Assembly: GCF_009734425.1 (NCBI RefSeq)
Contig: NZ_CP046455.1
Span: 2,604,001 to 2,668,000, forward strand
Direction of reading: 5' to 3'
DNA: 64,000 bases
Origin: Corynebacterium occultum
GTDB lineage: Bacteria; Actinomycetota; Actinomycetes; Mycobacteriales; Mycobacteriaceae
Part shown: positions 27,913 through 53,336 of the stretch, piece by piece
How the letters are laid out: every line of letters starts with the position of its first letter
Numbering within the stretch: position 1 is the first letter of the stretch
Notes under the pieces: model-generated
What the model saw: only the letters and a program-made list of their open reading frames with translations
Database searches by the model: none
What the model was told of the DNA's origin: nothing
Translations under genes and position numbers: made by a program

Positions 27913-27919
27913 TTTCATC

Positions 27920-34162: not shown

Positions 34163-35902
<1,740 letters not shown>

Positions 35903-36044: not shown

Positions 36045-36311
36045 CTACATCTTCGACAACACCTGGTCGGCGGTCTCGGTCGCCACAAAGAGCTCGGTGG
36101 ACCAGAGATAGCCCATCAGCAGCGCCACCAGGAGGATGGCAATGACCGCAGAAAGGATCCAGGCCATCATCCGCCCCCGGCGCGCCTTGTTCTCTGCCCG
36201 ACGGTCACTTCCCCACTGTTCCGCCTCGGTGACCGCGTCCAGGCTCACGCTGTCCCCACCGGGGGCCGGGGACTGACTGTCCCAGCCGGGATTACCTGCC
36301 GGATAACTCAC
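36045..36311 (-). CDS. Small single-helix membrane protein, last gene of the GTPase operon
   Basis: The 88-residue protein has a hydrophilic front half and one membrane helix (about 53-73, MAWILSAVIAILLVALLMGYLW) with basic residues (RRAENKARRGRM) just before it. GTG 36311 overlaps the stop of the GTPase gene by 4 bases (GTGA), so the two are translationally coupled. Longer frames upstream are shadows of the GTPase gene. Function is unknown; it may anchor the GTPase at the membrane. Confidence 0.7.
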   Translation of the reverse strand: MSYPAGNPGWDSQSPAPGGDSVSLDAVTEAEQWGSDRRAENKARRGRMMAWILSAVIAILLVALLMGYLWSTELFVATETADQVLSKM

Positions 36312-37654
36312 TTGAACCACCACTTCTTCTTTTTCTTCCCCGCCGCCGGTTGTTCTTGCTGTGGTTCCGGTTGGCTGAGGTTGGGATTGGTCTGCTGGGG
36401 TTGCTGCCCGGGGTGCCGCTGGGGAGCCTGCTGGGGGGAGGCACCATCCTCGGGCGGGTAGTGCTGCTGGCCGGGGTGAGCAGCCTGCTGGGGCACCTGG
36501 GAGGGCTGCTGCGGGGCGGATCCCCAGGCCGAGGGGAAGTCCGCCGGGATGTGCGCGCCGTCGAAAAGCCCGTACTCGGCGAATACCTCCCGCACCGGGT
36601 CGAGACAATGGAAGGGGGCGATGCCGGTGCGGCTGACGCGATCCCCCTCTGGTGGGGCACCGAGCGCGGAGACCGCGAAGCAGCGGAAGGGATAGGTGTG
36701 GGAACCCATGAGCGGAATATTGAGCTGGTTGAGCAGCTCATTCGCCCCCAGACAGCTCAGCAGGCTGCGGATCTCCAGATCCAACAGGGTGCTGGCACCT
36801 TTGTCGAAGGGCTGGTCCAGGGGTGCGCTGTCCCGGCGGAAGGAGGCTCCGTAGTTGCTCATCACCCGCTGCCAGTTCACCTGGTCACCCCCACCGTAGA
36901 AGGCGCCGTGCTCCACCTCCGAGAGGAATTGCATGGTGTCAAACTTGGAGAGGCAGAGGGAGATCCGAGGGCGGTCAACGGGTCCGAGCACACTGAGCAC
37001 ATTGCGCAGCACCGCCGTCGGATCATCATCACCGACATCATGGCTGGGCACCGTGCCCTCCAGCATCCGCGCGATCTCCGGCACCGCCATCGGGTCATAG
37101 AGGAAGATGACGCGGTTGGCGTAGCGGAAGAAGTCCAGCTCCGCCTGCCGCTCCACGAATTTCTCCTCCTTGAGGTCCTCGCCCGCCACATCACGGAAGA
37201 CCACGAAGATCCGCTTGCCGGGGAACTGCCGGCTGGTCAGGGCGAAAATCAGGGGGCGCTGCTGATGCGCATCCGAGGAAGCCACCGGCGGGGTCGGCGG
37301 CAGCAGACCCATCTGTTCGAAGAGTGGTTTCTCATACTTCTCCTCGTAGATCATCCGGGTGGTTTCATCGGCATAGCGGAAGGTGCCACCGTTCTCCACG
37401 ACCAGGCGCTTCAACAGCTTGACGACGACCGCGATGTAGAGGCTCTTGCCCGAGGACCGCGCCCCCGCCATGGCGAAGGTGATGGTGCTGGAGTTCTGCC
37501 AGCCCTGCGGCAGCGGCCACTCCGCCTGGTACTTCGGGTTGACGAAAGGGGAATGTTGCGCCGCCGGATCCTCCATCACCCGGAAGGTATAGGGACAGCG
37601 GGTGGGTAACTGACCATCGCCAGGTTCCGCGCTCAAATTCTGTGGGAAATTCAT
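36308..37654 (-). CDS. P-loop GTPase of the double-GTPase (DO-GTPase) type
   Basis: The 448-residue protein has the switch-GTPase motifs in order: Walker A GARSSGKS (64-71), a DxxG-type FRDVAGED (153-160) and the base-recognition motif SKFD (236-239). This spacing and the neighbours (GAP1-like, vWA, tubulin-like) fit the DO-GTPase families named in the study of actinobacterial NTPase conflict systems. The last about 85 residues are Pro/Gln-rich and end in a basic KKKKKWWFK patch that could touch the membrane. A TAG stop of the vWA gene lies 4 bases before its ATG. Confidence 0.75.
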   Translation of the reverse strand: MNFPQNLSAEPGDGQLPTRCPYTFRVMEDPAAQHSPFVNPKYQAEWPLPQGWQNSSTITFAMAGARSSGKSLYIAVVVKLLKRLVVENGGTFRYADETTRMIYEEKYEKPLFEQMGLLPPTPPVASSDAHQQRPLIFALTSRQFPGKRIFVVFRDVAGEDLKEEKFVERQAELDFFRYANRVIFLYDPMAVPEIARMLEGTVPSHDVGDDDPTAVLRNVLSVLGPVDRPRISLCLSKFDTMQFLSEVEHGAFYGGGDQVNWQRVMSNYGASFRRDSAPLDQPFDKGASTLLDLEIRSLLSCLGANELLNQLNIPLMGSHTYPFRCFAVSALGAPPEGDRVSRTGIAPFHCLDPVREVFAEYGLFDGAHIPADFPSAWGSAPQQPSQVPQQAAHPGQQHYPPEDGASPQQAPQRHPGQQPQQTNPNLSQPEPQQEQPAAGKKKKKWWFK

Positions 37655-37658
37655 AACC

Positions 37659-38615
37659 CTACTTCTCTCCCCTGGTCAACGTGTCGTACATGATTCTGGT
37701 GGGTGCTCTCAGCGTGGTGTCATTGTGTTCCGTGACCGCCTTGATCATCTGCCCGTCGAAGACGGTCGCGGTGATCCCCTGCGGCAACAGTGGTGGCCGG
37801 GGGCTGAGGAGGTGCACCATACCGGGAAACTTGAGCACCTCGGCCGGCAGGTCATCAGAGATGACCACCAGTGCCTCATCAGGGGAGATCTGGCTCAGTT
37901 CCACTCCCCAACCTACTTCGCGGCGCTCAAACTCCCGCTGGCCCAGCGCCTGGATCGACTCTGCCCCCTGCAACAGCTCCGGGGTGCTGCTGGCACTGCT
38001 GGTCAGCAACTGCACCCTGCGGTCGGCGACGATGCTGGAGAGCACCCCCGCGGCGAAGGTGAACATGGCCCCGAAACATTCCGGGGAGGTGCTGTAGTTC
38101 ATGGAGGAGGTGACATCCACCAGCAGCGTGAGGTCACGACGCTGCCCCTGGGGCAGGCCGTCCCGGTCAATGGAGCTGCGCAGGGCGGAACGCACCCCCG
38201 CCGAACCGGCGTCCAGGGAACCGTCCCCACCGGTTTCCCCAACCTGGATGTAAACCTGATCCCCCTCCGGAATCACCCGGAGGATGGTGCTGGCACGTAA
38301 CCCGCCGACCTCGAAGGCCGGAAGTTCCAACCGGGTTTCCCCACCGGCCCCGGAAGCGATGCTCAAGGTGGCGAAAAGGCTGGTGCCGCTGATGAACTGC
38401 GAGCCACTGTGACCCGGCAGGACCGTGATCTCGGCTTCGCCCTGGGGGTTGCGCAGGGCAACCAGGTTGCTGTTGGGCCTGCGGTGGGACTCCAGGGTGG
38501 GGGAAATCTCCACCTCGAAGCTGCTGTCATCGCTCAAGAAGACCTGCAGCTGAGCGAGGAACTTATCCCGGGGGACAATATGGGACTGGCCTGAGGCCAG
38601 ACGGATGACCGCCAT
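37659..38615 (-). CDS. Cytoplasmic vWA-domain protein
   Basis: The 318-residue protein has a beta-rich N-terminal half (about 1-160) and a von Willebrand A domain whose metal site is DVTSSM (in LLVDVTSSMNYS), with VVISDD as the later strand. It has no signal peptide, so it acts inside the cell. In related gene sets such vWA proteins accompany the GTPase and GAP1. Its ATG shares one base with the GAP1-like stop (TGATG). Confidence 0.75.
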   Translation of the reverse strand: MAVIRLASGQSHIVPRDKFLAQLQVFLSDDSSFEVEISPTLESHRRPNSNLVALRNPQGEAEITVLPGHSGSQFISGTSLFATLSIASGAGGETRLELPAFEVGGLRASTILRVIPEGDQVYIQVGETGGDGSLDAGSAGVRSALRSSIDRDGLPQGQRRDLTLLVDVTSSMNYSTSPECFGAMFTFAAGVLSSIVADRRVQLLTSSASSTPELLQGAESIQALGQREFERREVGWGVELSQISPDEALVVISDDLPAEVLKFPGMVHLLSPRPPLLPQGITATVFDGQMIKAVTEHNDTTLRAPTRIMYDTLTRGEK

Positions 38616-40849
38616 CAGTTCTTCTCCTTATTCTTGTTCTTCATCCGGAAACGTCTGCGGCTCTGGGTGGCTGGTGGCGGTTCCGTCGCCGGGGATTCGG
38701 GCCTGCGCCTTTCACCACTGGGTGCGGTGCGGGGCTCCGTGTTTTTGGACGGGGACGAGGTCTGCTGCACGGGGGGTGTTTTTTCCTTCAATCTGGCGAG
38801 CATCGCCTGAGCCACCAGCCCAAATACCAGGTTTATTTTCTCGCTGCGGCGAATATAGTCTTTCCGGGTATATGACTCCACGAGGCGGAGCAGTGCGGCC
38901 ATTTCCCGGTCGTTCCAGGGCAGGTCCTGATAATCCTGATCCGCGATGGTTCGACCCAGATCCTTGAGTGAAGCCTCCGCGAGATCACCGCCCACTTCCG
39001 CCAAGGGCTCTACGCGGTGCTGGACCGCCCTGCGCGTCAGCTCCGTCAGTTGATTGGTCAGGGCCGTTTCTTTAATGGCGTCTTCGTGGAGCACCCGCTG
39101 AATCTCAGCCCGCAGCACCACTGAGTAGTACACACGTAATAGTTCATCTGAGTAGTCTTCGGGGCTGTTCTCGATCACTTCCTCATCCAGCAGACGCTGC
39201 AGCATAACCGGGGTGTCTTTCGCCCTGAGCACCATGATCAAGGAACCGATCGGCACCCGCAAACCGATTTTCGCCAACCATTTCTCCGCCCCGGCGGGTT
39301 CCCGGTCAGGGCCCGAGCCGACCCCACTGAATGGTGGTTCGGGAATGACCCGATGCTGCTCAACCTGGCCCCGTGGTGCCCGGGTAGTCGGCTGCACCGA
39401 ATGTGAATACCCATATTCCCGGTTCGCCCGCTCAAATTGAAAATGCAGCTGCGAATGTGCCCCGGGATGCAACGCTCTCCCCTGCTGCCACTCGTCCATC
39501 GCCGGGAAGTGGTTAAAATGGGAGCGGAACTCAGACCCGTTGATCTTCTCCACCAGCAACTGGGTCTGCAGCAGGAAATCAACGTAATAGATCAGTGTCA
39601 AAATCGGTGCGGCATAGATCAGCTCCAGATTCTTCATCGCCTGTTCCCTCAGCGACTGCTGCTTCTGCGGGGGAAGTTTCCCGATCTGGAACGCCTGCCA
39701 AGTCTCATTAGGTGGCATCCGGCTTGGATCTGCAAGAAGAGGGTTCGCTATCACCTTCTCCACCCAGGCCAGATCCCCTCGGCGGTGCGGCAGATAATCC
39801 CCGACCGGCGCCCGGGGTGCCGCAGCCTTCCCCTGATCCAGCTGCTGATCTGCCAGTTTCACCAGCTCTGCGGGCAGCTTGGCGGCATGCTTACGCACCA
39901 GCCTCGCCAGGCCATCACCCAGCCGGTAAGTCACCCGCGCCGACTCATTGGCGGCCATCAGTTCAGCTGGCAGCTCATCACCCGCCAGTCCACTGCGAAG
40001 CAACCCGGTGGTCAACTGCGCCCAACTGCCGGTGAGTTCCGGGGTGTGCGTGGCGGGATCGTCGGGGTCGATCAGCTGAATGCCCCTGCGCCCGACCAGC
40101 TGATGTTTGTCCTGTGCGGGGAGCACCAGCACCGGCAGCAACCCGTTGCGGAAATCCTGGGTGGGCAGGGCCGCCGCCCTTTCGAAGGTGGAGAAACTTA
40201 AGAGTCTACGGGCTTCCGCCGGGGTGAGGGTGGAGGACAACGCCATCAGCCAGAAGGCCGCCTGATCGGGGTCCTCGAGCAGCAGCACCGCCTGTTCCTT
40301 ACCTGCCTGAAGCACGTCCTGCAGCCGGTGGAGGGCACCGCTGCGATCCCCGTAGAGTTCCTTGACCAGCATCCAGGAGGCGTAGAGGTCCGACTTGGAG
40401 CCCGGCCGAGGTTCCGCCAGCCCAGGCTCCAGGGAGACCGCGTTGACCTCGGTGGCACGGAAGGGGGTGAGCAGATCCGGGGAACGAAAAAAGTTGATCG
40501 GGTACTGCGCCTTGAGCGGGATGTCCAGATCCCGGTCAATCACCGCATGGGTGAATACATTGCCGGGTCGGCCGGTGGCATCCTTGCCGGCGGGCACGGA
40601 CTGCATGATCAATGCGCCCTTTTTGAGCGGCTGGTATTCAAAGCGCCGCGGCAGCTCAGCGATCGCCTTGGAGCCGATGAAATCATCAAAGGTCTGCACC
40701 GGGATGAGGCTGGTCGGGGCATGCTCCGCGACCAGCTGGTGGTGCTCCTCGGCGGCGCTTATCGACGGTCCCGTGCGCCACCCGCCCTGTCCGGAGGCAT
40801 TGCGGAAGGAGGCATAGGTGACATGCGTCCAGGGACTCATCGGACCCAT
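38615..40849 (-). CDS. GTPase-associated protein 1 (GAP1)-like
   Basis: The 744-residue protein starts WTHVTYASFRN with QGGWRTG and has GRPGNVFTHAVIDRDL (about 93-108). Both are hallmark segments of the GAP1 N-terminal domain as I recall it. The middle has helical repeats with basic and acidic residues, and the C-terminus is basic and low-complexity (PATQSRRRFRMKNKNKEKN). GAP1 proteins are tied to double GTPases by gene neighbourhood; their biochemical role is unknown. ATG 40849 shares one base with the preceding stop; the ATG at 40840 is an alternative. Confidence 0.7.
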   Translation of the reverse strand: MGPMSPWTHVTYASFRNASGQGGWRTGPSISAAEEHHQLVAEHAPTSLIPVQTFDDFIGSKAIAELPRRFEYQPLKKGALIMQSVPAGKDATGRPGNVFTHAVIDRDLDIPLKAQYPINFFRSPDLLTPFRATEVNAVSLEPGLAEPRPGSKSDLYASWMLVKELYGDRSGALHRLQDVLQAGKEQAVLLLEDPDQAAFWLMALSSTLTPAEARRLLSFSTFERAAALPTQDFRNGLLPVLVLPAQDKHQLVGRRGIQLIDPDDPATHTPELTGSWAQLTTGLLRSGLAGDELPAELMAANESARVTYRLGDGLARLVRKHAAKLPAELVKLADQQLDQGKAAAPRAPVGDYLPHRRGDLAWVEKVIANPLLADPSRMPPNETWQAFQIGKLPPQKQQSLREQAMKNLELIYAAPILTLIYYVDFLLQTQLLVEKINGSEFRSHFNHFPAMDEWQQGRALHPGAHSQLHFQFERANREYGYSHSVQPTTRAPRGQVEQHRVIPEPPFSGVGSGPDREPAGAEKWLAKIGLRVPIGSLIMVLRAKDTPVMLQRLLDEEVIENSPEDYSDELLRVYYSVVLRAEIQRVLHEDAIKETALTNQLTELTRRAVQHRVEPLAEVGGDLAEASLKDLGRTIADQDYQDLPWNDREMAALLRLVESYTRKDYIRRSEKINLVFGLVAQAMLARLKEKTPPVQQTSSPSKNTEPRTAPSGERRRPESPATEPPPATQSRRRFRMKNKNKEKN

Positions 40850-43221
40850 CACCAGCCCCCTGGGTTGAAGTGCCGCATCCACTGATCCAGGGAGAGCTGT
40901 TCCGGATTCGGATCGATCAGGGCATTGACCTCCGCGCCGGGGGTGTTGTCATCGGTGAGGAAAAGGCGCAGAAAACCGGTGCGGTAGCGGGTGAACAGGT
41001 CCGGGTCCAACTCCCAGTACTCCACTTCCGGTTCCCCCTTTTTACGGAGGTTGAGAGTGCTGATCACCTGTTCAAAGTTGCTGCTTCCCTCACTGTTCTT
41101 CCGGGTCCAGATCGGCTGCCCGTCATCAGGTTCCAGGGGCAGACGATCATTGCGGACAACCAGGGTGAAGCTCCGGTATTCCGGGATCTCACGGTCACTG
41201 TAGATGGCCAGTGCCAGGCGGTTGTGGCCGTTGGCAACCAGTTTGTAGGAGAATTTCCGCAACCCGTTGTAGTGCAGGGTGGTGGGCTCTCCCCAGATTT
41301 TCTCGCCACCATAGGTGCGGCTGGGGTAGAGCAGCACCTTGCCGGGGTGGTTCAGCTGAATCCGCATCCCACCCTGCTCCGCATAGTTCTCCAGGGAGAT
41401 GGTGCCGGCGATCGCGGTGACCGAGGGATCAAGTTTGCCCGGGGTCTGCCCGGACAGGTCTCCCACACCGGGTTCTGCGATCACGGCGGTGACATGGTGG
41501 GCCTGTTCCGGCCAACCGAAGGTCAGCAGCTGGGTACTCACCCGCTCATGAAGTTTGGCGTTACTGACCTGACCGCACCGCACCCAGGAATAGGACTTGC
41601 CCACCAGAGCCTGGTTGCCCACCACACTCACTGAGGTGATGAACAGTGAATACCAGTCTTCCGGCCAGTCCACGACAGAGGCGGTGTCGCCCTGATTCAG
41701 GAAGTTCGCCCGGTCCCGGTCCGGGAGGCCGAAGCCCTCCAGCTGTTCCACCTCCACGACCCGGTCCTGCAGACCATCGGCCGGTGGGTTTTCGGTCCGG
41801 TAGATCCGGACGTTGCCGGAGTGGGGTTGCTGCCAGCGGACATCGAATCGGGCATCGACACCGCTGCCGGCGGGGGTCACCTCGATCGGGACCTCCACCA
41901 CCTCGGCGGGCATGGTGATGGTGAATTCCTCGGAGGGGGCCGAGGCAACCTCATTCCCACCGATCAACACGAAGCGTTCGGCGACGAACTTATAATCCAC
42001 CCCGCGGTGTTCCGGGGTGAAGCGGAAACCCTCCCGGTTCCGTTCCTGCTTCACGATCTCATTCTGCGGGGAACGGATCCTGCGCTCGGTGGCTGGGGCG
42101 CGGAACACCGCGACCCGGTGGGTGTTCTCCACCGGTGCCCACTGGCCGGTGATCACCGAACCGGCGACAGAGAGGTCGATGTTGTCGATGGGGAGGATGA
42201 AGTAGCGCTCCCCCACCAGGCGGGGTTCGCTCTGCACCGCAGCAGATTCAGAGGACCCTTCGTACAGCCACACCTGGTAGACCCGGAAGGCCTTGCTCAG
42301 GGGATCAGAATCCACCCAACGGGTTTTCAGCGTGATTGCCCGGTCTTCACCGTGCTGCAGGTCCCGGGCGAATTCGCTTTCATCACTGAGTACCCGGTAA
42401 ACCTGCACCGCAGCACCATCGTCGGGGACTGACCAGGACAATTCCAGAGAACCATCCGAGGTGGGGTTGATGTTCAGCTGGGCGCCCGGGACCTCGACGA
42501 CCTCAGAGAAGAAGTCCAGGCCCCGGAACTGATGGGGCTGCCAGGAACTCAGGTGCCCCTCCAAGGGTGTCTCCGCGGGCTGCGGCTCCGGCTGGTAGGA
42601 GGAGTACTCCGGTTCCGGGATCCAGGTCTCTGCCGGTTTCACAGCAGGTTCCGGCTGAGGGGAGAAGTACTCCGGTTCAGGGTACTGCGCCTCCTGGTGC
42701 TGCGGCGATGCCGGTTCCGGGGTGGGTTCCGGCTGGTAGGAGGAGTACTCCGGTTCCGGGATGTCCGGCTCAGTGCCGAAGATGGGAGGGAATACCTGGT
42801 CAAGGTTCGCGTCCTGCTCAGTCTCGACCTCCGCCTCGTGGACCTCCTGCGGGGACGGCCACTGCTGATGCTGGGGCATGGGTTCAACCACCCCCTCATA
42901 AACCTGCTGCTGCGGAACCTCGGGAGAGGGCTGCACCTCACCGGCCACCACAGTCATGTCGGGTTCAAAAAGGCGCGGATCGCTGCGGGTGAGAATGGGA
43001 TCGAGGTTGCCGATCAGGGCCAGAGCGCGGGCCCGACGCAGTGCGGAGGCCCACACCAGCAGTGCCGGGTGGTTGGTGCCCGGCTCCAGCTGGGAGGGGT
43101 CCTGGGCGGCGGCCAGCAGCTCCTGGCCGGAGGGCAGGCTCTCCACGGCATGGATGGTGCGGGCAGCCTTGTGCCACTGGTCGAAAGCCTCGAGTATCTG
43201 ATACTCAGTGGAGTCTGACAT
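40849..43221 (-). CDS. Fibronectin-III-like protein with Pro/Glu/Tyr repeats
   Basis: The 790-residue protein has a helical N-terminus (about 1-90), a disordered Pro/Gln/Glu region with three EPEY-(S/F)-x-x-QPEP repeats (about 150-220), then a series of beta sandwich domains resembling fibronectin type III (for example SLELSWSVPDDGAAVQVYRV and SGVDARFDVRWQQPHSGNVRIYR). There is no signal peptide, so these domains are probably cytoplasmic. The ATG immediately follows the preceding TAG. It may serve as a scaffold between the GTPase parts and the large membrane protein. Confidence 0.65.
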   Translation of the reverse strand: MSDSTEYQILEAFDQWHKAARTIHAVESLPSGQELLAAAQDPSQLEPGTNHPALLVWASALRRARALALIGNLDPILTRSDPRLFEPDMTVVAGEVQPSPEVPQQQVYEGVVEPMPQHQQWPSPQEVHEAEVETEQDANLDQVFPPIFGTEPDIPEPEYSSYQPEPTPEPASPQHQEAQYPEPEYFSPQPEPAVKPAETWIPEPEYSSYQPEPQPAETPLEGHLSSWQPHQFRGLDFFSEVVEVPGAQLNINPTSDGSLELSWSVPDDGAAVQVYRVLSDESEFARDLQHGEDRAITLKTRWVDSDPLSKAFRVYQVWLYEGSSESAAVQSEPRLVGERYFILPIDNIDLSVAGSVITGQWAPVENTHRVAVFRAPATERRIRSPQNEIVKQERNREGFRFTPEHRGVDYKFVAERFVLIGGNEVASAPSEEFTITMPAEVVEVPIEVTPAGSGVDARFDVRWQQPHSGNVRIYRTENPPADGLQDRVVEVEQLEGFGLPDRDRANFLNQGDTASVVDWPEDWYSLFITSVSVVGNQALVGKSYSWVRCGQVSNAKLHERVSTQLLTFGWPEQAHHVTAVIAEPGVGDLSGQTPGKLDPSVTAIAGTISLENYAEQGGMRIQLNHPGKVLLYPSRTYGGEKIWGEPTTLHYNGLRKFSYKLVANGHNRLALAIYSDREIPEYRSFTLVVRNDRLPLEPDDGQPIWTRKNSEGSSNFEQVISTLNLRKKGEPEVEYWELDPDLFTRYRTGFLRLFLTDDNTPGAEVNALIDPNPEQLSLDQWMRHFNPGGW

Positions 43222-46017
43222 CTAGAATTCCCCCGTTCCGGGCATCTGCTGTTCATTCGGGCGAAACTGGGTGGAAAATGGCTGGGCTTCGGTGCCCCGG
43301 CTCGGTGGCAGGTGATGTTCCTCGGTCGGCATCTGCGCGAGCAGTTCCGATGAGGCAGACTGCGAGAGCTGACTGCGGAAGGCGATGTCACTCTGCCCGG
43401 CAGTATGTCCGACCTGCACCAGCACCTCGCTGACACCGATGGCGTCGAAGGCGTTGGCGTGACGTTCATGGGTGCAGAAGTTCGGGTCCAGGGAAAGCAC
43501 CCGACCCACCTGTCCGCTGGCGGAGGCGATCTCCCCGTGGAAGGAGCCGCTGGCCACGGAGTTGGCCAGGGGTGCCCGGTTGGGAGCCTCGGTCTTCTTC
43601 CCGTCCCGGTAGAACTGGAGGGAGGTCAACACTGCCGCCCCTTCATGGCGGGCGTCATTGGCCAACGCTGCGGTGATGGAGTTCCACTTGGGGGCGCTCC
43701 GATCCTGGGAGCGGAATTTCTCGCCGGCGATCCACTGGGAGAAACGTGCCAGATCACCACTGCTGCCCTGCCCGGTGGTGGCGAAGAGGTGGTCCACACC
43801 GATGGGGGTGTGGTTCTCGGCGGTGAAGCTGCGGGCGGCTTCCTTCATGCCGCCATCGACGTAGTCCTGCAGCCAACCCTGGCGGTAGAGCTTTCTGCGG
43901 AAGCCCACCGCCAACTGGCTCACGGTTTGTTCATCCGGGGTGGCCTCGGCGAAAAGCAGCGAGTCCGGCATCGTGTTCACCGGGATCGCGGCTTCCACCC
44001 TGGTGTGCTGGATCTTGCCGAAGGGGCGTTCCAGCAGGGTGCCGATGACCTGGGAGACGGAGAGGAACTGCTGGTAAGCGACATTGAGACGGCCGATCGT
44101 GTGTTTCGTGCGGCTGTGGTTTTCCAGCGCCACCGCCAGCCGGGATGCCACGTCACTGCGCTGGTTCCGGAGGCGGATATTGTCACGGGTCTCGAAGTAG
44201 ACCTGCAGGATCCAGCACAACAGCCAGAGCGCCAACCAGATCCCGAAGAGCCAGGCCTTGGTGGAGGTCTCAGACTGGTTGAGGTGACGGACCCAGGTGC
44301 TCAACTCCATCACGGACTCAGCCCGCCAGTTCTCCACCCCCCAGACCAGGGCGAAGACAGCGGCCGACCAGAAGGTCACCCAACCCAGCCAGCGGAAGAT
44401 CTTGCCCGCGCGCCCCGGGCCGGCAACCTCTTTCTTATCCTTTCTATAATGCTCGATCTGGGCCGCATAGTTGGCCTGCTGCTGGTGCTGCTGCTGGATC
44501 CGCTCCTGCAGTCCGCGGCCGACATGATAAGCGAAGCTCTGGGAATTCCGGCCCTGCCACTGCTGGAACTCACTGCGGACCTGGCCCATCTGGCGTTGCC
44601 CGACCTGGGTCTGGCTGCCCAACCGCTGCTCATACTCCTGCACCCCGACCACGTCATAGGGGGCGACCCGATGCTCACCGAGCACGCTGCGCAGCGCGTA
44701 GGGCAGCTCGGCACCGAAGTTCTCCTCTGGTCCCGGGATCACCTCAACAGCCTGCTTGGCCACGGTGAACCGGGAGGATGAACCGTCGTTGACAACGCTG
44801 GGCAGGCGGGCCTCGCCTTCCCCCACCAGCCGGGGTGCGGCATCGAGCAGACTCATGGCGGTGTTCTTGTAGGCCTCCCACAGGGGGCGTAGCTCAGCCG
44901 CGGCCCGCAGGTTGAGGTCGACCTGGGCAGGGTCCCGCTGGGCGGGGGTGTGGCCCGGGGCGTCGCTAAGCGAGTCGCCGCCCACCCGGATCCGCGAACC
45001 GGTTTCACCATAGATGGTGGACTGGACCGCGTCGGTGGCAAAGCTGCTGGACTCGGCGCGCACATCACCCCAGGCGCGGACCGGGGTGCTGATCATGTTC
45101 TTGAACCACTCACCCAGGAAACTCTTGAATCCGGCGGCGGCACTGGTGTTCCGGGTCCGCTCCACGGTCGGGCTCACCCGATCGCCGATCAGCTGGTCCT
45201 CAAATTTTTCGAGCAGACCCTGGGCCGCCTCAGCGGCGAAACCGGCCGGGTTCTGGGTGTGCTGGGCACTGATCTCCTGGCCTGGTCGCTCAATTCGGGG
45301 CAGCGGGTTCTCGCTGGTGTCCAGGATGCGGGACTTCAGCTGGGCCTGCACCGCCTGGCCGTCGATCCGGCGGTAGAAGGAACGCACCAGACGGAAGGTT
45401 TCACCGTGGTTGGGGGCCAGCTCACTCACCGGGGCGGATGTTGCACCCTCCCAGATACCGAAGAGACTGGCGATCCCAGCCGCACAGTGCAGGGTGAAAC
45501 GGGGGTCGAGGTGGTCGTGGTAGTAGGCCACCGTCGAGGATTCCGGGCCGAGACTGTCCTCAGGGGCCAGCATCAGGTTGGTGTAGCCGTTGAGGATCGG
45601 CAACGGTGCGGCCAGGGGGGAATCAACCGCGGTGATCATCAGGTTGGTGCGGTGGATGCCCCGGCCCACGCTGAAGCTGCTCAGCGCATTATTCAGCGCG
45701 GTGATCTCCACCGCGGAGAGGATTCCGTCCTCGGCACCGATGACGTTGATGATGCCCAGGTGCATCCGGGAGGCCCCAGACTGGGAGACCAGGGAGTTGA
45801 AGGGGCGACGATTGATCTCCGGGGTGCCGTCCGCATTGACCCGCAGGTGGATGGCCTCAGAGGAAGGACTCACGAAGGCGTCGGCATCCACCCACACCAG
45901 ATCCCGGATCAGGCCGGTGGCGGTGAAATCCTCCAGGGTCTGGCGGATGCCCTGTGCCAGTCGGCCCCGGCCCAGAAACACCGTCAGCGTGCTGTCAAGC
46001 CCAACAGGGGTGCTCAT
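43222..46017 (-). CDS. Large two-helix membrane protein of unknown function, tubulin-linked
   Basis: I do not recognise a named family for this 931-residue protein. The N-terminus (LTVFLGRGRLAQGIRQTL) looks like an alpha/beta fold and the segment to about 250 has further strands. Two membrane helices near residues 541-562 and 589-607 make a hairpin, leaving both ends on the same, probably cytoplasmic, side. A Gln-rich helical stretch precedes them and a coiled segment follows. The ATG shares one base with the tubulin-like stop (TGATG), so the two proteins are made together and may form a membrane-bound complex. Confidence 0.65.
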   Translation of the reverse strand: MSTPVGLDSTLTVFLGRGRLAQGIRQTLEDFTATGLIRDLVWVDADAFVSPSSEAIHLRVNADGTPEINRRPFNSLVSQSGASRMHLGIINVIGAEDGILSAVEITALNNALSSFSVGRGIHRTNLMITAVDSPLAAPLPILNGYTNLMLAPEDSLGPESSTVAYYHDHLDPRFTLHCAAGIASLFGIWEGATSAPVSELAPNHGETFRLVRSFYRRIDGQAVQAQLKSRILDTSENPLPRIERPGQEISAQHTQNPAGFAAEAAQGLLEKFEDQLIGDRVSPTVERTRNTSAAAGFKSFLGEWFKNMISTPVRAWGDVRAESSSFATDAVQSTIYGETGSRIRVGGDSLSDAPGHTPAQRDPAQVDLNLRAAAELRPLWEAYKNTAMSLLDAAPRLVGEGEARLPSVVNDGSSSRFTVAKQAVEVIPGPEENFGAELPYALRSVLGEHRVAPYDVVGVQEYEQRLGSQTQVGQRQMGQVRSEFQQWQGRNSQSFAYHVGRGLQERIQQQHQQQANYAAQIEHYRKDKKEVAGPGRAGKIFRWLGWVTFWSAAVFALVWGVENWRAESVMELSTWVRHLNQSETSTKAWLFGIWLALWLLCWILQVYFETRDNIRLRNQRSDVASRLAVALENHSRTKHTIGRLNVAYQQFLSVSQVIGTLLERPFGKIQHTRVEAAIPVNTMPDSLLFAEATPDEQTVSQLAVGFRRKLYRQGWLQDYVDGGMKEAARSFTAENHTPIGVDHLFATTGQGSSGDLARFSQWIAGEKFRSQDRSAPKWNSITAALANDARHEGAAVLTSLQFYRDGKKTEAPNRAPLANSVASGSFHGEIASASGQVGRVLSLDPNFCTHERHANAFDAIGVSEVLVQVGHTAGQSDIAFRSQLSQSASSELLAQMPTEEHHLPPSRGTEAQPFSTQFRPNEQQMPGTGEF

Positions 46018-49000
46018 CAGAACTCACCGGCTCCGGGCAGGTCCGCTGCACCGGACTGGGCGGCGCGGGGATCGAAGGTGGGGACGAAACCGGTCTCGGC
46101 CTGGGGCGGGCCAGCCTGCAGGCAGGCCTCCAGGATGTTGATGATGTCGGCGGTCGCCTCGGTCACATCGGGAGCGATATCGGCGAAGACCGGCACCTTG
46201 GCGGACACCGAACGGTCGGTGATGTCGGCGAAGGGGCGATCCGCCGTGTTGAAGAGGCGTCCCTCCCCCAGCTTCGCACTGGGCACATAGGCCTGGGCGA
46301 TCTCATGCTGACGCTGCAGCCAGGCCCTGGTGATCTCCAGGCGTTCCGCCGGGGTGGCACCGACACCCGTGCCGGCGATCTGGTTGACCTCACCGGCCAT
46401 CCGCTCACCGTTGTAGAGCCACTCATGCAGCAGGCGACGCCCACGGGTGGTCCGTCCTCCCAGGGAAGGGCTGGGGGCGTCATCCCAGAGCTGACGCAAC
46501 AGGATATAGGGCTGCACCGAACGGAAGAGGGGTTGCTCACCGGAGCGTGCCCAGGCCAGGGAGACCGACTCCAGCAGACTCGGCAACCAGTCCAGGCCGG
46601 CCCGAAAACGGGAGACCGGGGTCAGCAGCGGGGTGTCGAAGTTGACCCACTGCTTGCTCTGCTCCTCGTGGATCTGCACCGGGGTGGTGTCCGCGGTGTC
46701 CAGGGTCTCCGGGAAGTAGATCCGACCGATGATGCGACCGATATACCAGCCCTTGACCATGGCCAGCCGCTCCGTGTCGGTCATCGGCAGGGCGGCCGGC
46801 AGCGGGCGGGCCCGACGGCCGTTCCAGAACTCCGAGCGGGTGCCGGCAGTCTGGCGCCACTGCTTCTCGATGGGAGGCAGCAGGGAATCGAAGACGATCG
46901 GCACATAGTTGGGGTAGGAGCCGAAGATGTCGATGTGGCGTTCCTCACCCTGGTTGACCAGGGCACTGCCCAGCGGTTTGGTGATGTCCGCGGGGCGGTG
47001 GTTCGGGTAATCACGCACCGCCTGCTTCAGGGAATCACCCAGCTCATCACCACCGAAGGGGATCTGGGAGAAGTTGAACTCATAGCGCACCTCATCGTTA
47101 TAGATGGCGCGCACCAGCTGGGTGTTGATCTGGGCCAGCGGCAGGGCGTAGGTCATCGCCTCACTGAACTTGCTCAGCACCTGCTGACGACGCGCCCCCC
47201 GCTCGCTCTCCGAAAGCCCCGGCGCGGTGACGAAATCCCGCAGCGAGCTGGAGATGAACTGCTGGAAGGAGAAACCGGGGCGGCGGATGTACTGGCGGGC
47301 ACGCTCGAGCACCTCGGCGCTGCTGATGTTGAACTGGAAACGGGCGGGGCGGGGATCACGGTGTTCCCCGGAGTTCTCCGGGTCATAGGCCAGGTCGCGG
47401 GCAACCCAGACCTCAATCAGGCGGATCAGGTCCCGGGGGGCCGCCTCCGAGCCGGAGAGTGACTCCCAGTTGCCGCTGACCACGCGCTGGGCCGACACAT
47501 TGAGGGCCTGTTCATAGTCGAAGTTGTGGATTTCCTCGGTCCGGGCGGACTGGGTGATGTCGGTGATGAACTGGCCGACGAAGGAGTCCACCTCCGTCAG
47601 GAAGACCTCGTTGGCGGCCTGGCTGAAGCGGGTGGGGACGGTGTTCTGAGACTCATCCGGCCACAGGGCGGGGACATTGGTCTTGAGCTGGGCGACGCCG
47701 AGGTCGGAGTCGCTGGTCTTGGTCATCGCATCCTCCAGATCGGCGTGGCCCATCTGGATGTTGCGCTGCAGCGGGGTGATGAAGTTGCTGACGAAGTCAT
47801 GCAGCACGCTGGCCATGTGCTGGGCGATCATCGCCATCGCCCGGTTCCGCAGCTGGGGGGCGATCTTGGCCACGATCTCCTGCGTCCACTTGGTGGAGTC
47901 GTCGATCCGGCCGCGGTCACTTTCCAGGGCGGCGCGCTGGGTTTCATCCAGGACCACGGCCTGTGGGGCGCGGCGATCGGAGAGCTGGCGCAGCTCAGCG
48001 ACCAGGTTGTCCTCGATCTTGTGGCGGATGTCGAGCAGCAGTGCACTGCCGTAGGGCACCCCGAACTTGGCGATTTCGGAACGCAGCAGCCCAAGCAGCC
48101 CTTCCTGGAGGATCCCGGCGCTGGCCCATTCGGCGACCCCGGAGTAGAGCTCCTGCCGTTGGTCATTGTCGACCATGCTGCTGCTGATCTGCAGGGCCCG
48201 GGTGACGTCGATGACCCATTCGGAACCACGCTTGTTCTGGGCGTTGGGGATCTGGTCCTGCACCACACCCATCATCCGCTGGGTCCATCTCTCCACGACC
48301 CCCTGGAACATCTGGTTGATCCAGCCCTCCGACTGGCCGGGCAGCGGCATGATGCGGTGGAGCTGATTGTCCAGACCATTGCGGTTATTGTCCAGGCGCT
48401 TCTTGATCTGCAGGTCGGCCGGGGATTCATCGCTCTTGTCATAGTGGCCGCGCAGCAGGCGTTCCACGGCGGAACGTGCCAGGCGCTGAGCGGCGTACTC
48501 GGCGTAGCGGTCACGGCCCATGGACAGCTGGGCGTAGCCGAGAGTGCCCCAGGGGACGTTCTTCGGTTCAGCCGTACCCCAGGCGAAACGGCTCTGGTCT
48601 GCGCTGGCACCGCCCCGGTTGCCGAGGGTGTAACGCTTGTAGTCCTCCAGGGCCCCGTCATCGGCGACCAGGGCCGCCAGCGCCCGGCCCAGGGCGCGGT
48701 AGACGGTGTCCGCCTGACCGTCGCCGAGCAGGGCACCATTCTCACCGGAACGCACACCCACCGGGAAGATACGTCCCACCGGGACGGAATCTCCTCCCAC
48801 CGGAACTCCCAGCGCCTGGAAGATCCGCTGGTCCGACTCCGTGGCGGAACCCAGCTGGGCGGCCAGCAGTTCGGAGAACATCGCCAGGGCATTCGGGTTG
48901 GCACCGGCCACGGCATCCGGGGAAAGCTGGGAGAAGATGTCCGGGGTGACCATGAACAGGGAGGTGTTGCCCACGGCGATGCCCTCAAGGCCGGTCAGCA

Positions 49001-49619
49001 GGCGGCAGATATCCAATGCCATGGAGGCACCGGCACCGCCGGCCATGGAGGAGACGACGAACACCAGGGGTTGACTCTGGGAGCTGTCCGCACCGGAGGA
49101 GGTTTCGTTGTAGAGCTGGTTACGGAGGTCAGCCAGCTCACGGTCGGTTTCACCCGTGAAGAGCACATCCCAGGACTTGCGCAGCTCCTGCTGCACCTCC
49201 TGCAGCTTGCTCAGGATCAGCATGCGGCCGATTGAACGGTACTGGCCGGCGCCGGCACTGATGACGGTGGTCTCCGACTCCGGGTTGGGCAGCGCCCAGC
49301 TGGCGATGGTGCCCAGCTCGCGGCGGCTGCCCAGTTGGTTGGAGACGGCGGTGTCCACCGGGTAGTAACGCTCGGTGGAACCGCAGGAGATGTAGCGGCC
49401 CCCGGCCTCGGAGACGTTCGGCAGATTCGCGCCGGCGCTTTCCGGGCTGGTCGGCACATCCACCGAGACGAACTGCCAGGCCCGTGGCAGTTTCACGTCC
49501 TTGGGGCTGGGGTAACGTTCCGGCAGTTTCTCCGCCAGAGTGGTCTTGAGCTGATCCATCATATAGGCCAGGGTCTTGGCACCGGAGCCGCCGCAACCGA
49601 CGACGAAAATTTTACGCAT
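46017..49619 (-). CDS. Tubulin-like GTPase of the Tubulin_2 type
   Basis: The 1200-residue protein begins MRKIFVVGCGGSGAKTL, the phosphate-binding start of a tubulin/FtsZ-like fold, has FVSVDVP (about 50-56) and a glycine-rich SMAGGAGASM (191-200) in place of the tubulin signature loop. The GTPase-like part covers about 1-330. The rest is a long helical region without known domains. It is not FtsZ: size, motifs and context differ. Tubulin-like proteins of this sort occur with vWA and GTPase genes in actinobacteria. The start is 76 bases after the secreted vWA gene. Confidence 0.75.
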   Translation of the reverse strand: MRKIFVVGCGGSGAKTLAYMMDQLKTTLAEKLPERYPSPKDVKLPRAWQFVSVDVPTSPESAGANLPNVSEAGGRYISCGSTERYYPVDTAVSNQLGSRRELGTIASWALPNPESETTVISAGAGQYRSIGRMLILSKLQEVQQELRKSWDVLFTGETDRELADLRNQLYNETSSGADSSQSQPLVFVVSSMAGGAGASMALDICRLLTGLEGIAVGNTSLFMVTPDIFSQLSPDAVAGANPNALAMFSELLAAQLGSATESDQRIFQALGVPVGGDSVPVGRIFPVGVRSGENGALLGDGQADTVYRALGRALAALVADDGALEDYKRYTLGNRGGASADQSRFAWGTAEPKNVPWGTLGYAQLSMGRDRYAEYAAQRLARSAVERLLRGHYDKSDESPADLQIKKRLDNNRNGLDNQLHRIMPLPGQSEGWINQMFQGVVERWTQRMMGVVQDQIPNAQNKRGSEWVIDVTRALQISSSMVDNDQRQELYSGVAEWASAGILQEGLLGLLRSEIAKFGVPYGSALLLDIRHKIEDNLVAELRQLSDRRAPQAVVLDETQRAALESDRGRIDDSTKWTQEIVAKIAPQLRNRAMAMIAQHMASVLHDFVSNFITPLQRNIQMGHADLEDAMTKTSDSDLGVAQLKTNVPALWPDESQNTVPTRFSQAANEVFLTEVDSFVGQFITDITQSARTEEIHNFDYEQALNVSAQRVVSGNWESLSGSEAAPRDLIRLIEVWVARDLAYDPENSGEHRDPRPARFQFNISSAEVLERARQYIRRPGFSFQQFISSSLRDFVTAPGLSESERGARRQQVLSKFSEAMTYALPLAQINTQLVRAIYNDEVRYEFNFSQIPFGGDELGDSLKQAVRDYPNHRPADITKPLGSALVNQGEERHIDIFGSYPNYVPIVFDSLLPPIEKQWRQTAGTRSEFWNGRRARPLPAALPMTDTERLAMVKGWYIGRIIGRIYFPETLDTADTTPVQIHEEQSKQWVNFDTPLLTPVSRFRAGLDWLPSLLESVSLAWARSGEQPLFRSVQPYILLRQLWDDAPSPSLGGRTTRGRRLLHEWLYNGERMAGEVNQIAGTGVGATPAERLEITRAWLQRQHEIAQAYVPSAKLGEGRLFNTADRPFADITDRSVSAKVPVFADIAPDVTEATADIINILEACLQAGPPQAETGFVPTFDPRAAQSGAADLPGAGEF

Positions 49620-49695
49620 GATCCACTTTTTCCTTGACTGATATTGATGAAATTGAAAAATGCCCAGATATGTCTGTACAGGTTAGCCGGGGAGC

Positions 49696-52377
49696 TTAAG
49701 GGGTTCGCGGCGAACCGAAACCGCCACCCGGGTTAGGGCCACCCGGCCCACCGGAACCGAAACCACCACCCGGCCCACCAGAGCCGAAGCCACCACCAGG
49801 AGTAGGACCGTTTGGCCCACCGGAACCGAAGCCACCACCGAAGTTCGGCTGCGGGTACTCCGTCCCCGGCTGAGCCGGGGTGTCCCCGCCACCGGGGGCA
49901 CCGGGGTTCGCATCGCCGGGCTGGGCCGGGACGTCGTCAAGTTCTTCCAGGAGCTGTTCCGCCAGGTTGGGGGCGTAGTGCGTGATGTCGTGGGTCAGCT
50001 CATTCAGCTGTCCCGGGTCGCTCGGCAGGTAGGGGAATGCCACCAGTTCCAGCTGTGCGGGTTCCCCACTGCGGGCGGCGAGGAACCAGCTGCCCTGAAC
50101 CACCAGCGGCAGCTTCGCCCGACCCTGGTCCTGCTTGCCCTCACCACTGATGGAGGGCACATGTTCGACCACGGCAACCGGCTCAGCGAAGGGATTGAGC
50201 TGGAAGCTCTTGACCTGGACCTGGTAGCCGTCGGCGTGGAACTGTCCCTCGCTGATGTTGACCTGATTCTGCGCGGTGGTGCGGGAGTTCAGATCCGGCT
50301 GGTTCCGGCCCTCATAGGTGAGCAGACCATCCTTGTACTCCAGCGGGATGCGCACCGCTGCAAAAGCCTCCCGGGGGATCTTCGCGGTGAAGAAACGCAC
50401 AGCGTAGAGCACCAGCAGCGGAATCAGCAGGGCCAGGAGCAGCGCGCTGATCAGGGCCGCCAGGAAGGTGGTGGTGTTGATGGGCACACTGACGCTGCCC
50501 TCGGTGGGCACTGCCACAGTGGCCTCGTTCGCCCCCTCCGGGTTCGCAATCTGCAACGGCAGGGAACCGTTGACCAGGCCATCGCGTAATTCGCTCAAGC
50601 TCAGGTCCACTGGGAAGGTGGTGGACTCATCCTCACCGAGCACCAGGGCATTATCCACACTGTTGTACTCGCTGCCGGCCGTGATGGACATCCCCTCGGG
50701 CAGAGTGCCCTGCAGCTGGGAGCCCTCCGGCAGCCACACCCTGCCCGGGCCGTTGACCGGGACATCCACGCTGAGGGTTTCCTCAGTGGCCTCGAAGTGG
50801 ATTCCCCCCGGCAGCTGCGGCATATCCCGCTGGGTCAGGGAGAAGGAGGTGGCGCTCAGGATCGGGCTGAGGGAGGTGCCCGGGTTGCCGTCCGCCCCGG
50901 CGGTGGTGATCGTGGTCCGGGCGTTCAAGGAACCCAGGGCCGGCAGGTCCGTGATGGCATCCAACGCCACCTCCGCCTGGCCGGAAGAAAGGTCGAGATC
51001 CTCAGCCAACACCTGCGTCTCCGCATTATCGGCACGGGTGAAGCTCAGTTCCAGGCGTGCCTGCCCTTCCAGGGCGCGGGGGTTGCCATCCCGATCCACC
51101 AGCTGCAGCTGCAGCTGCTGATCATCACGCAGGTTCACTCCCCCCTCGGCCGGATTCTCGCCGGCGCCGAAACGCAGCTGCAGGTCGGGCTGGATCTCCA
51201 CCGAGTTGAAGACCCGGCTGTCCACGGCCCCGGAATCAAAGTTCTGGAACTGCAGCTGCCAGACACCGGCCCAGTCCCCGCCCTCCGGCAGGGCCAGGGT
51301 GCCATCTGCCATCTGCACCGGGGTGCTCTCCGCCTCCCAGCCGACCTCCGCCGAATTCAGGGAACCGGAACCTGACTCCCGCAGCTCCACGGTCTCCCCA
51401 TTCGGTGCGGTGAGCACCAGGTGGGCAGCAGGACCAAGATCATCCTTGGCGATCGCGGTGAAACGCACCGAATTCACCGAGTTATCCAGGGTGAAGGTGA
51501 AGGGTTCCCCGGCGCCGGTCTCCCCCATGGCCTCACCGCCGGTGGCCAGTGCCTCCCGGAAAGCCGCGAAGAGCCCACCGACATTGTCGGCGGTGAAGAA
51601 GGCACCATTGGGCGGCAGCTCACCACAGGTACCGGCCCCTTCGGTGATGGACTGCAGCAGACCGAAGTCGGAGGGGTTCTGGGGGGCGGAGAGACCGATG
51701 CCGATGTGGCTGACACCGGCGGACCGCAACCGGTCGCTGACCCCACCCGGGGCACAAAGCGCCTGCTCCGCGGCGTCGGCACCCTCAGCAGCGGTGAGCG
51801 CACCATCCGTGAAGGTCACCAGCATGCGGCAGGCATCACCCGAGGCGGAACGGGAGAAATCCTGGTAGGCACCATCGATGGCGGCGGCGTAGTTGGTGTA
51901 CTGCTCATCGGTGCGCTCCGTGAAAGCCTGGATCTCGGCCTTGGTGTCCGCCACGGTGGCCTCGCTGAGCTCAGTCCACTCCCCGTAGTTCTCCGGGTCG
52001 GTGGCCCCTGACTTATAGGTCTGGCCGAAACCGGCGATCCGCACCGTGGTCCGGAAACCCTCATCACTCTGCTTGCTCAGCAGCTCCTCCACGAAGCTCT
52101 GGGCGGCGGGAACCCGGTTGTGTTCGACGTCCGCGCCGGGGCGGTCCTCGTGGATCTGTCCACCGCTGACCTCGTGGATCAGGGAGCCGGTCTCATCGAT
52201 CATGATGATGAGATCAAGTGCCTTCTTATCGGAGATGCAGGCACCGACCTGGGAGAGGGAACCACTCGCGGGGGCCGGAATTCCGGGCTGTGCCAGGGCG
52301 CCCGGTGCAGCCACTGCAGTTATCAGGGTGGCGGCGGCGGCCACTGCCAGGGTCTTGAAGGATCTCACAGGGTTCAT
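49696..52377 (-). CDS. Secreted, membrane-anchored vWA protein with Gly/Pro-rich C-terminal tail
   Basis: The 893-residue protein has a Sec signal peptide (cleavage likely after ALA, residue 29), a vWA domain with MIDAS D61-E-T-G-S65 and TFTDGA, then several beta-sandwich segments. One membrane helix follows (about 633-660, FLAALISALLLALLIPLLVLY) and then a cytoplasmic domain. The last 50 residues repeat GGGFGSGGP/GPNPGG units. The topology puts an adhesin or sensor-like vWA outside and a tail inside. ATG 52377 overlaps the preceding stop (ATGA). Confidence 0.8.
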   Translation of the reverse strand: MNPVRSFKTLAVAAAATLITAVAAPGALAQPGIPAPASGSLSQVGACISDKKALDLIIMIDETGSLIHEVSGGQIHEDRPGADVEHNRVPAAQSFVEELLSKQSDEGFRTTVRIAGFGQTYKSGATDPENYGEWTELSEATVADTKAEIQAFTERTDEQYTNYAAAIDGAYQDFSRSASGDACRMLVTFTDGALTAAEGADAAEQALCAPGGVSDRLRSAGVSHIGIGLSAPQNPSDFGLLQSITEGAGTCGELPPNGAFFTADNVGGLFAAFREALATGGEAMGETGAGEPFTFTLDNSVNSVRFTAIAKDDLGPAAHLVLTAPNGETVELRESGSGSLNSAEVGWEAESTPVQMADGTLALPEGGDWAGVWQLQFQNFDSGAVDSRVFNSVEIQPDLQLRFGAGENPAEGGVNLRDDQQLQLQLVDRDGNPRALEGQARLELSFTRADNAETQVLAEDLDLSSGQAEVALDAITDLPALGSLNARTTITTAGADGNPGTSLSPILSATSFSLTQRDMPQLPGGIHFEATEETLSVDVPVNGPGRVWLPEGSQLQGTLPEGMSITAGSEYNSVDNALVLGEDESTTFPVDLSLSELRDGLVNGSLPLQIANPEGANEATVAVPTEGSVSVPINTTTFLAALISALLLALLIPLLVLYAVRFFTAKIPREAFAAVRIPLEYKDGLLTYEGRNQPDLNSRTTAQNQVNISEGQFHADGYQVQVKSFQLNPFAEPVAVVEHVPSISGEGKQDQGRAKLPLVVQGSWFLAARSGEPAQLELVAFPYLPSDPGQLNELTHDITHYAPNLAEQLLEELDDVPAQPGDANPGAPGGGDTPAQPGTEYPQPNFGGGFGSGGPNGPTPGGGFGSGGPGGGFGSGGPGGPNPGGGFGSPRTP

Positions 52378-53009
52378 AGCTTTCCCGCCCACAGGGCGAT
52401 ATCAACGGCGGACCAGAGCACTGCGATCACCAGAGCGGCGACGGTGGCGTAGAAGATCCCCTTCTTCCAGTCGACATGGGAGTAGAAGCCGGAGGCCCGG
52501 CGTTTATTGTTCTCCGAGAAGTAGAGGCCGAGGCAGCTCACCCCCAGGAAACCCGATAAAAACCAGGCGACTATGGCGGTGATGCCGAAGGTGGTGTCCG
52601 TGGCAACCAGGGAACCGAAGGTGAGCCAGGCGTTGAGGATGATGCCGATCAACCCCAGGATGAGGCTGGGAGCCAGCCTTCCCACCGGGGCGGAGGTGGC
52701 ACCACCACGTCCGCCGCCGGAGGGGGCGGCGGCGGGGGTTGGGGAATTCAGACCCGGCCCGCTTGAGGGCCCTGGCTGGGATCCGAAAGGGCCCCTGGAA
52801 TTCGATGGGAAAGGGCTGCTCCCCGGCTGGCCGGGTCGGAAACCGGAGTCCCCCTGGGGGTTCTGTCCGAAACGGGGTGGCCCTGATCCGGCAGGTCCGA
52901 AACCAGACTGATCGAAGCTCGGCTGGCCCGAACCGGACTGGCCGGGGCCCTTACCTCCCGGTGAGGACCCGGCGGAATCTCCGGGAAAGGGTGTGAATCC
53001 TTGGGACAT
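52374..53009 (-). CDS. Pro/Gly-rich membrane protein, first gene of the operon
   Basis: The 211-residue protein has a disordered N-terminal half full of Gly, Pro, Ser, Gln and Phe (FG-type repeats such as QSGFGPAGSGP) and three membrane helices (about 115-135, 140-160 and 190-208). GGAG about 6 bases before ATG 53009 supports this start over ATG 53024 and 53048. The low-complexity front resembles the tail of the next protein, so the two may interact or condense together. Function is unknown. Confidence 0.65.
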   Translation of the reverse strand: MSQGFTPFPGDSAGSSPGGKGPGQSGSGQPSFDQSGFGPAGSGPPRFGQNPQGDSGFRPGQPGSSPFPSNSRGPFGSQPGPSSGPGLNSPTPAAAPSGGGRGGATSAPVGRLAPSLILGLIGIILNAWLTFGSLVATDTTFGITAIVAWFLSGFLGVSCLGLYFSENNKRRASGFYSHVDWKKGIFYATVAALVIAVLWSAVDIALWAGKL

Positions 53010-53336
53010 CAGCTGCTCCGGCATCACATAGAGGGAAAGGAAAATCATTCAACTATGCCAGAAAGCCTAGTTAATGGCAGGGACATTCTCAGTTTCGGAG
53101 GGGAATGGCACCGACATATATTCGAATATCGGCTCCTTCACCCCCCTGGATTTCATGCCAGGCGGCCAGCTTGAGGCCCCCTGGACCCCCAGCCCAGACA
53201 GTCCTTCCCGGAACCCACACCAAGGCCACCGGGAATTCCCCACCCCCAGCCAGCACGCCCCCTGAGTATCAGCCAGCCATGCCAACCCCACCGGGCCCCT
53301 GGGTTGCCCGGACTGGAAATCATTAGACTCGGGCGC
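53010..53336. other. Divergent control region of 327 bases
   Basis: This region separates the GTPase-tubulin operon from the dipeptidase gene. It carries a perfect 12-base palindrome ATATTCGAATAT (53118-53129), a possible minus-strand -10 TAGGCT (53064-53069), and near the right end a -10-like TAGACT (53324-53329) just before the dipeptidase ATG. No gene is present. Confidence 0.45.

Follow-up and report, generated by a model that had tools for sequence, protein, structure and literature searches.

We analyzed a 64,000-nucleotide stretch of DNA (hereafter the window) from Corynebacterium occultum, contig NZ_CP046455.1. This part of the chromosome (3.2-Mb genome) carries, at window positions 36045–53048, a nine-gene minus-strand operon, read from the list of open reading frames (ORFs) and designated A to I. 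Two of its products, the tubulin-like protein C and the membrane protein D, end in nearly the same short peptide, and in most genomes compared the two tails are alike within a genome, though they differ between genomes. The operon comprises the following genes and features:

Gene A, 52374–53048, minus strand: 224 amino acids; N-terminal part rich in Gly, Pro, and Phe with FG motifs, followed by about three membrane helices (from the ORF, hydropathy, and FG counts)
Gene B, 49696–52392, minus strand: 898 amino acids; signal peptide (by eye), outside part resembling a von Willebrand factor A (vWA) domain with DETGS, one membrane helix at about residues 644–662, inside part with a Gly/Phe-rich tail
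Gene C, 46017–49619, minus strand: 1,200 amino acids; tubulin-like; the predicted fold is a complete tubulin interrupted by a coiled-coil insert (about residues 400–665), and GTP-loop motifs are conserved
C tail, 46020–46037, minus strand: last six codons, PGAGEF; proposed docking peptide
Gene D, 43222–46017, minus strand: 931 amino acids; probable degenerate tubulin (about residues 9–250 and 680–890) with a helical insert between, containing two membrane helices
D membrane-helix region, 44194–44391, minus strand: about residues 543–608 (sequence by eye and helices in the model)
D tail, 43225–43242, minus strand: last six codons, PGTGEF; proposed docking peptide
Gene E, 40849–43221, minus strand: 790 amino acids; fibronectin-III-like at best
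Gene F, 38615–40882, minus strand: 755 amino acids; GAP1 protein with GAP1-N2 and GAP1-M (Pfam)
Gene G, 37659–38615, minus strand: 318 amino acids; inside vWA-like protein with a DxTxS motif resembling a metal ion-dependent adhesion site (MIDAS)
Gene H, 36308–37654, minus strand: 448 amino acids; DO-GTPase with P-loop, DVAGED, and SKFD
Gene I, 36045 to about 36311, minus strand: about 88 amino acids; one membrane helix; length varies among relatives

The initial annotation had described nine packed minus-strand genes, and the ORFs bear out both the packing and the junctions. The one change concerns gene A, whose reading frame opens at 53048; position 53009, previously taken as the end of the operon, is an inner ATG of A. 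A and B overlap by 19 bases, C and D by 1, E and F by 34, F and G by 1, and H and I by about 4; D and E touch, and gaps of 76 and 4 bases separate B from C and G from H, respectively. Unlike most other junctions, that between B and C (49620–49695) is a gap of 42–117 bases in all 12 loci compared and may contain an internal promoter or an alternative start site. Promoter- and terminator-like sites within the operon showed no excess over shuffled sequence, and the window held no Rfam match at the gathering threshold.

The operon is kept together across its range. A search with C matched 74 of 242 Corynebacterium genomes, the window's own included, and 72 loci were read. The two left out (genomes are given by G numbers) were G232, in which C is cut by a contig end, and G071, where 35 residues matching the beginning of C (C1:1835472–1835576; 51% identity, E 1.1e-4) lie in a genome without the operon and may be a remnant of its loss. 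Genes B to H stand in one order in 68 of the 72, and the other four loci (G024, G231, G198, and G102) sit on short contigs or contig ends. The neighborhood comparison across Corynebacterium proposed in the initial annotation finds the genes kept in order, not scattered. In the wider family, 55 of 401 genomes, from 9 of 31 genera, contain Tubulin_2. From the 41 matching genomes of other genera, 35 loci were read, six with weak or broken matches being set aside; B to H are ordered in 31 of these. Exceptions there include G759, cut at a contig end; G619, with 2.8 kb between E and F and H beyond the stretch examined; and two loci where G was not found by tblastn, yet a G-sized stretch of 1.0–1.1 kb is present. 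Because the order recurs in 99 of 107 loci overall, the operon is far from a chance assembly. Gene A was found in all 12 Corynebacterium loci whose upstream region was examined and in 34 of 35 loci of other genera.

Insertions between these genes are rare. Among 623 B–H junctions, eight exceed 200 bases, two of them being the G-sized stretches; other gene-sized additions occur only in G619, G708, and G700, and G127 has 766 bases beside a short G. With so few enlarged junctions, no general exchange of parts was seen. The extra ~2.8 kb of G619 (L159) is possibly a mobile insertion, and the ~2.5 kb between the called B and C of G708 (L182) and G700 (L183) may be an additional gene or reflect a B call that is broken. 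Across 99 genomes, the protein distances among B to H show correlations of 0.83–0.97. A phylum-wide sample yielded matches in 6 of 246 genomes, again counting the window's own, with C. glutamicum recovered as a named control. Named relatives of gene D come from Corynebacterium species and one Rhodococcus, and in four phylum-level loci (G393, G424, G367, and G268) tblastn found no match to D. An open frame of 888–921 amino acids lies beside the tubulin gene in four of five Streptomyces-type loci (L175 and L215–L218; none was called in L217) and may be a distant D counterpart.

We assigned C to the tubulins from a Pfam match to Tubulin_2 (E 1.1e-57), in agreement with the 1,200-residue tubulin-like protein first annotated. 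Pfam and the structural model together give an N-terminal GTPase domain with T1/T4 loops followed by a C-terminal domain, as in the tubulin superfamily. The GTP-loop motif takes the form GG[AST]GAS in 104 of 104 homologues, and the canonical GGGTG[ST] appears in none of the 104. Protein D matches tubulins by structure comparison and not by sequence, and it is probably a second, degenerate, membrane-anchored tubulin without the GTP-loop motif, C having served as positive control in the motif test. Its earlier description as a two-helix membrane protein holds as regards the helices, of which the hydropathy scan scored only the second (residues 590–608), and misses both the probable tubulin fold and the tail shared with C.

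Those tails are PGAGEF and PGTGEF in the window. Elsewhere, both proteins of G013 end in MPGEDLF and both of G183 in PGLD; G012 and its relatives carry DLDDTF/DLDETF, G026 has FGGLV/FDGLV, and G070 has FGDL/QGDL. A protein labelled C. glutamicum (P0053) bears the same kind of tail, LPGEGEF. Tail counts were made without G024 and G102, in which D is cut by a contig end, and tree-based tests also without G231, in which C is cut. The final residue is F, I, L, M, or V at 93% of 210 C/D ends (105 pairs), compared with 17% at residues −40 to −8. After relatives above 50% identity were collapsed, C and D shared their last residue in 21 of 29 Corynebacterium pairs (6.8 when shuffled) and in 25 of 37 pairs across all genera (10.3 when shuffled); none of 5,000 shuffles reached either count. 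When D tails were instead simulated on the tree of C (2,000 simulations), identity at the last residue was expected in 43.9 of 104 pairs and observed in 77, with a simulation maximum of 67. Positions −2 (55 versus 12.3) and −5 (54 versus 17.5) likewise lay above every simulation. Within Corynebacterium, from which the co-variation signal comes, the last residue is identical in 56 of 69 pairs. The last six residues are more conserved than the preceding 30 in both C (0.41 versus 0.28) and D (0.59 versus 0.32), and in the models both tails have a predicted local distance difference test (pLDDT) score below 50.

Protein H matches DO-GTPase2 (PF19993, E 2.3e-9), and the three motifs on which it had been called a switch GTPase, GARSSGKS (P-loop), DVAGED, and SKFD, were seen by eye in the translation and are kept in 97, 99, and 102 of 102 homologues, respectively. 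It carries the conserved glutamate in Walker B described for DO-GTPases by Kaur et al. 2020. Two N-terminal CPxC zinc-ribbon pairs occur in most of the aligned H relatives from other genera; in the Corynebacterium rows, window H included, the first pair lacks its second Cys and the second pair is missing. Protein F, likewise annotated correctly as GAP1-like, matches GAP1-N2 (PF20013, E 1.8e-19) and GAP1-M (PF20014, E 1e-8), in line with the systems of Kaur et al. 2020. A Pfam scan up to E 1 gave no GAP1-C match in F, although whether Pfam holds a GAP1-C model was not checked.

The remaining proteins gave little to profile searches. At E up to 1, Pfam returned nothing for A, E, or G of the window, and matches for B, D, and I stayed below the cut-off, as did those of NCBIfam, all to I. 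Protein G, annotated as an inside MIDAS vWA protein, retains the by-eye DVTSS motif, a loose form of which is kept in 93 of 101 homologues, and weak Pfam matches appear in homologues (vWA-TerF-like in 5 of 21, VWA_2 in 1 of 21) and not in window G; motif and homologues thus weakly suggest a vWA protein. For B, the DETGS motif seen by eye points to a vWA-like part, the Pfam match being a weak, below-cut-off one to GBD_Hemicentin and none to vWA; its signal peptide and single helix agree with the secreted vWA protein with a membrane helix described initially. The fibronectin-III label of E draws on weak fn3 matches in 3 of 22 homologues (E up to 0.1) and finds none in window E. HRDC was matched neither by any window protein (Pfam, E up to 1) nor among the families of the 22 E homologues (E up to 0.1). 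The Gly/Pro-rich membrane protein A proved Gly/Pro/Phe-rich, with about three helices. In the Gly/Pro-rich inner segments of A and B (49696–53048), FG dipeptides occur at 2.5–3.7 times the shuffled rate over relatives; these segments recall condensate-forming FG repeats and might help clustering.

We put at about even the chance that the operon encodes one co-inherited membrane machine, in which soluble C and a membrane-anchored pseudo-tubulin D share a docking tail, H and F act as a switch, and B is a sensor. In the mechanism we propose, C would be a soluble GTP-binding tubulin carrying a coiled-coil insert. D would be another protein of tubulin fold, one that no longer has the GTP-loop motif and whose insert holds it in the membrane. 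In each, a flexible linker leads to a similar short C-terminal peptide. A single partner or hub could read both tails and so join soluble C, or C polymers, to membrane-bound D. The DO-GTPase H and the GAP1 protein F would form a switch over this connection; the inside vWA-like G, with the FG-rich inner tails of A and B, may aid clustering at the membrane; and the outside vWA-like part of B may sense the envelope or a ligand. A broader proposal, which we hold at somewhat less than even, is that this two-tubulin system, with a co-evolving C-terminal peptide read by a shared hub, arose in bacteria independently as an equivalent of the eukaryotic tubulin-tail code and is linked to a Ras-like switch and an outside vWA sensor.

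Several results weigh against this proposal. With respect to the tails, position −3 showed no co-variation beyond the tree null, and positions −4 and −6 were marginal (p 0.03 and 0.045). In other genera, the last residue is identical in 21 of 35 loci and little co-variation is added; since D ends in F in 33 of the 35, these genera tell little on the question. At 12 of their loci a final N, H, I, or L in C is paired with a final F in D, and at two the last residue of D is G; within Corynebacterium, D lacks the tail in G034, G065, and G235. Changes on the same branch numbered 9 at the last residue versus 3.6 expected, but the null reached 10 (400 runs), and 9 at position −2 versus 4.6, with a null maximum of 12. 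An independent-pairs test of F versus non-F was not significant. In C, the core is better conserved than the six-residue end (0.54 versus 0.41). Among four Streptomyces-type loci, the three with both genes called show no matching tails, the fourth having no called D counterpart; in the fifth locus of this type, G393, the proteins end in WDGDVL and GDGDPW. For a tail reader, a tree-aware scan for co-change over A to H gave no clear winner, and no operon protein stands out. The four columns scoring best for the last residue are in C itself (positions 17, 189, 1128, and 1130; z 3.8–4.7 among 4,226 columns) and serve as a lead only. An acidic residue falls within the last five positions of 67 C tails and 92 D tails, out of 104 each, and the MIDAS-like pattern of G is too loose to decide whether G reads them. 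As to the second tubulin, hhalign found no significant C–D homology with 12-row, 31/39-row, or ~100-row alignments, so it is structure comparison that carries the claim for D. No sequence-profile link joined D to solved tubulins, and Foldseek by itself gave no match for D at E ≤ 0.001 against the PDB or viral models.

Four other explanations were weighed. The first, which we judge somewhat unlikely, is an anti-phage or other conflict system as framed by Kaur et al., in which an invader would be sensed by B or E, with the DO-GTPase imposing a threshold and a tubulin assembly then stopping the invader or causing cell death. Membership in that group follows from the DO-GTPase2, GAP1-N2, tubulin, and vWA-like proteins, and patchy presence also suits it (74 of 242 Corynebacterium genomes, one a 35-residue remnant, and 6 of 246 in the phylum sample). 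It accords poorly with a gene set so constant that B to H are ordered in 99 of 107 loci and gene-sized additions are confined to G619, G708, and G700, with the co-inheritance of B to H, and with recurrent genomic sites. Of 66 loci with sufficient flanking sequence, 16 have the operon next to groEL, and other shared sites comprise one group of 12 and another of 8, four of the latter with a ribosomal S7-like gene (genes named by eye). In the window, the neighbors are as follows:

groEL, 34163–35860, downstream of the operon: recognized by eye
M20 peptidase, upstream of the operon, other strand
PPK2 (polyphosphate kinase 2) gene, 31982–32881, minus strand: near groEL
1,325-amino-acid protein, 27839–31816, plus strand: AMP-binding domain, carrier domain, and hexapeptide repeats

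No PADLOC family reached E 0.01, the best being PDC-S32 in C (E 0.04) and PD-T4-6 in I (E 0.015). Consistent with the initial annotation, no toxin domain emerged from Pfam, NCBIfam, or PADLOC, as far as those reach. Because the gene set is constant, we lean toward a dedicated envelope or cytoskeletal machine over phage defense.

We consider it unlikely that D is no tubulin at all, its match arising from a chance union of a Rossmann-like N-terminal domain with a β-containing C-terminal domain; the negative sequence comparisons favor this account and the structural match opposes it. C-terminal signals of this size are common, and the tails could be targeting, processing, or degradation signals read by a factor outside the operon, C and D not being partners. 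This fits the failure to find a reader within the operon; a conserved household reader would not easily allow tails that change together by lineage, and C and D are adjacent, with a one-base overlap in the window. We consider this account improbable. Finally, mimicry of the FtsZ tail to recruit SepF or other division proteins and act on septation is highly improbable as a simple explanation: C. glutamicum SepF binds the FtsZ tail DDLDVPSFLQ (available text of PMC7118173), which the DLDDTF/DLDETF class resembles, yet FtsZ tails are nearly constant in the eight genomes compared and do not follow the C/D tails, which vary widely between the same genomes.

The preferred account, a co-inherited membrane machine with two tubulin-like proteins, has relatives in the literature. 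Kaur et al. 2020, in the sections available, predicted GAP1-N2 GTPase-centric systems with a tubulin theme, which the operon resembles in its DO-GTPase, GAP1-N2/M, tubulin gene, membrane vWA-like protein, possible fibronectin-III protein, and membrane setting; the family placement and membrane machine of the initial annotation are backed by these sections and by Pfam. The broad finding, a GAP1-N2 tubulin-theme system, is therefore already published. Their actinobacterial theme has one tubulin with an uncharacterized helical C-terminal domain, two FNIII (fibronectin-III) proteins (HRDC accompanying the first and vWA the second), and DO-GTPases that in most cases bear two zinc ribbons. The pairing of a tubulin gene with a membrane-bound vWA-like protein is present here in C and B. 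By comparison with the theme as described there, C appears to be a complete split tubulin and D a second tubulin, the two share tails, the inside vWA-like protein is separate, HRDC was not detected, and the aligned Corynebacterium rows have degenerate zinc ribbons. Since the HRDC feature was not found, the operon is a variant of the wider GAP1-N2 kind and not the exact actinobacterial tubulin sub-theme. The FtsZl1 family of Makarova and Koonin 2010 (PMC2875224, available text) is likewise a diverged tubulin with a coiled coil, linked vWA and GTPase genes, and a proposed role in membrane remodeling; no resemblance of its C-terminal part to tubulin C-terminal domains was reported there, whereas the model of C recovers one.

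For the tails, the closest parallels are eukaryotic microtubules and bacterial division. An EEY tail common to α-tubulin and EB1 is read by CAP-Gly proteins, with the last residue needed for binding (PMC3672205, available text), and by our proposal C and D similarly are two different proteins ending in one peptide with a decisive last residue. We claim no homology; Pfam scans gave no CAP-Gly match, and the C/D tail differs between lineages. FtsZ and SepF (PMC7118173, Nat Commun 2020, in the text available) also combine a tubulin-family protein, a disordered linker, and a short end peptide for membrane tethering, but the FtsZ tail is nearly constant in the eight genomes and the C/D tails co-vary. 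A second membrane-anchored actinobacterial tubulin with a shared tail is not described in the available sections of Kaur et al. 2020 or PMC2875224, nor among the literature matches listed (titles and abstract starts), which likewise held no experimental study of the GTPase-tubulin systems predicted in 2010 and 2020. The constancy of B–H order and the matching of C and D tails go beyond that broad published finding. Corynebacterium glutamicum is a harmless and well-tooled model, and the presence there of an operon copy with a concrete motif makes the question testable. Should the tubulin pair prove genuine, a tubulin partner tethered to the membrane and a common tail read-out would have evolved in bacteria in a setting other than cell division or plasmid segregation.
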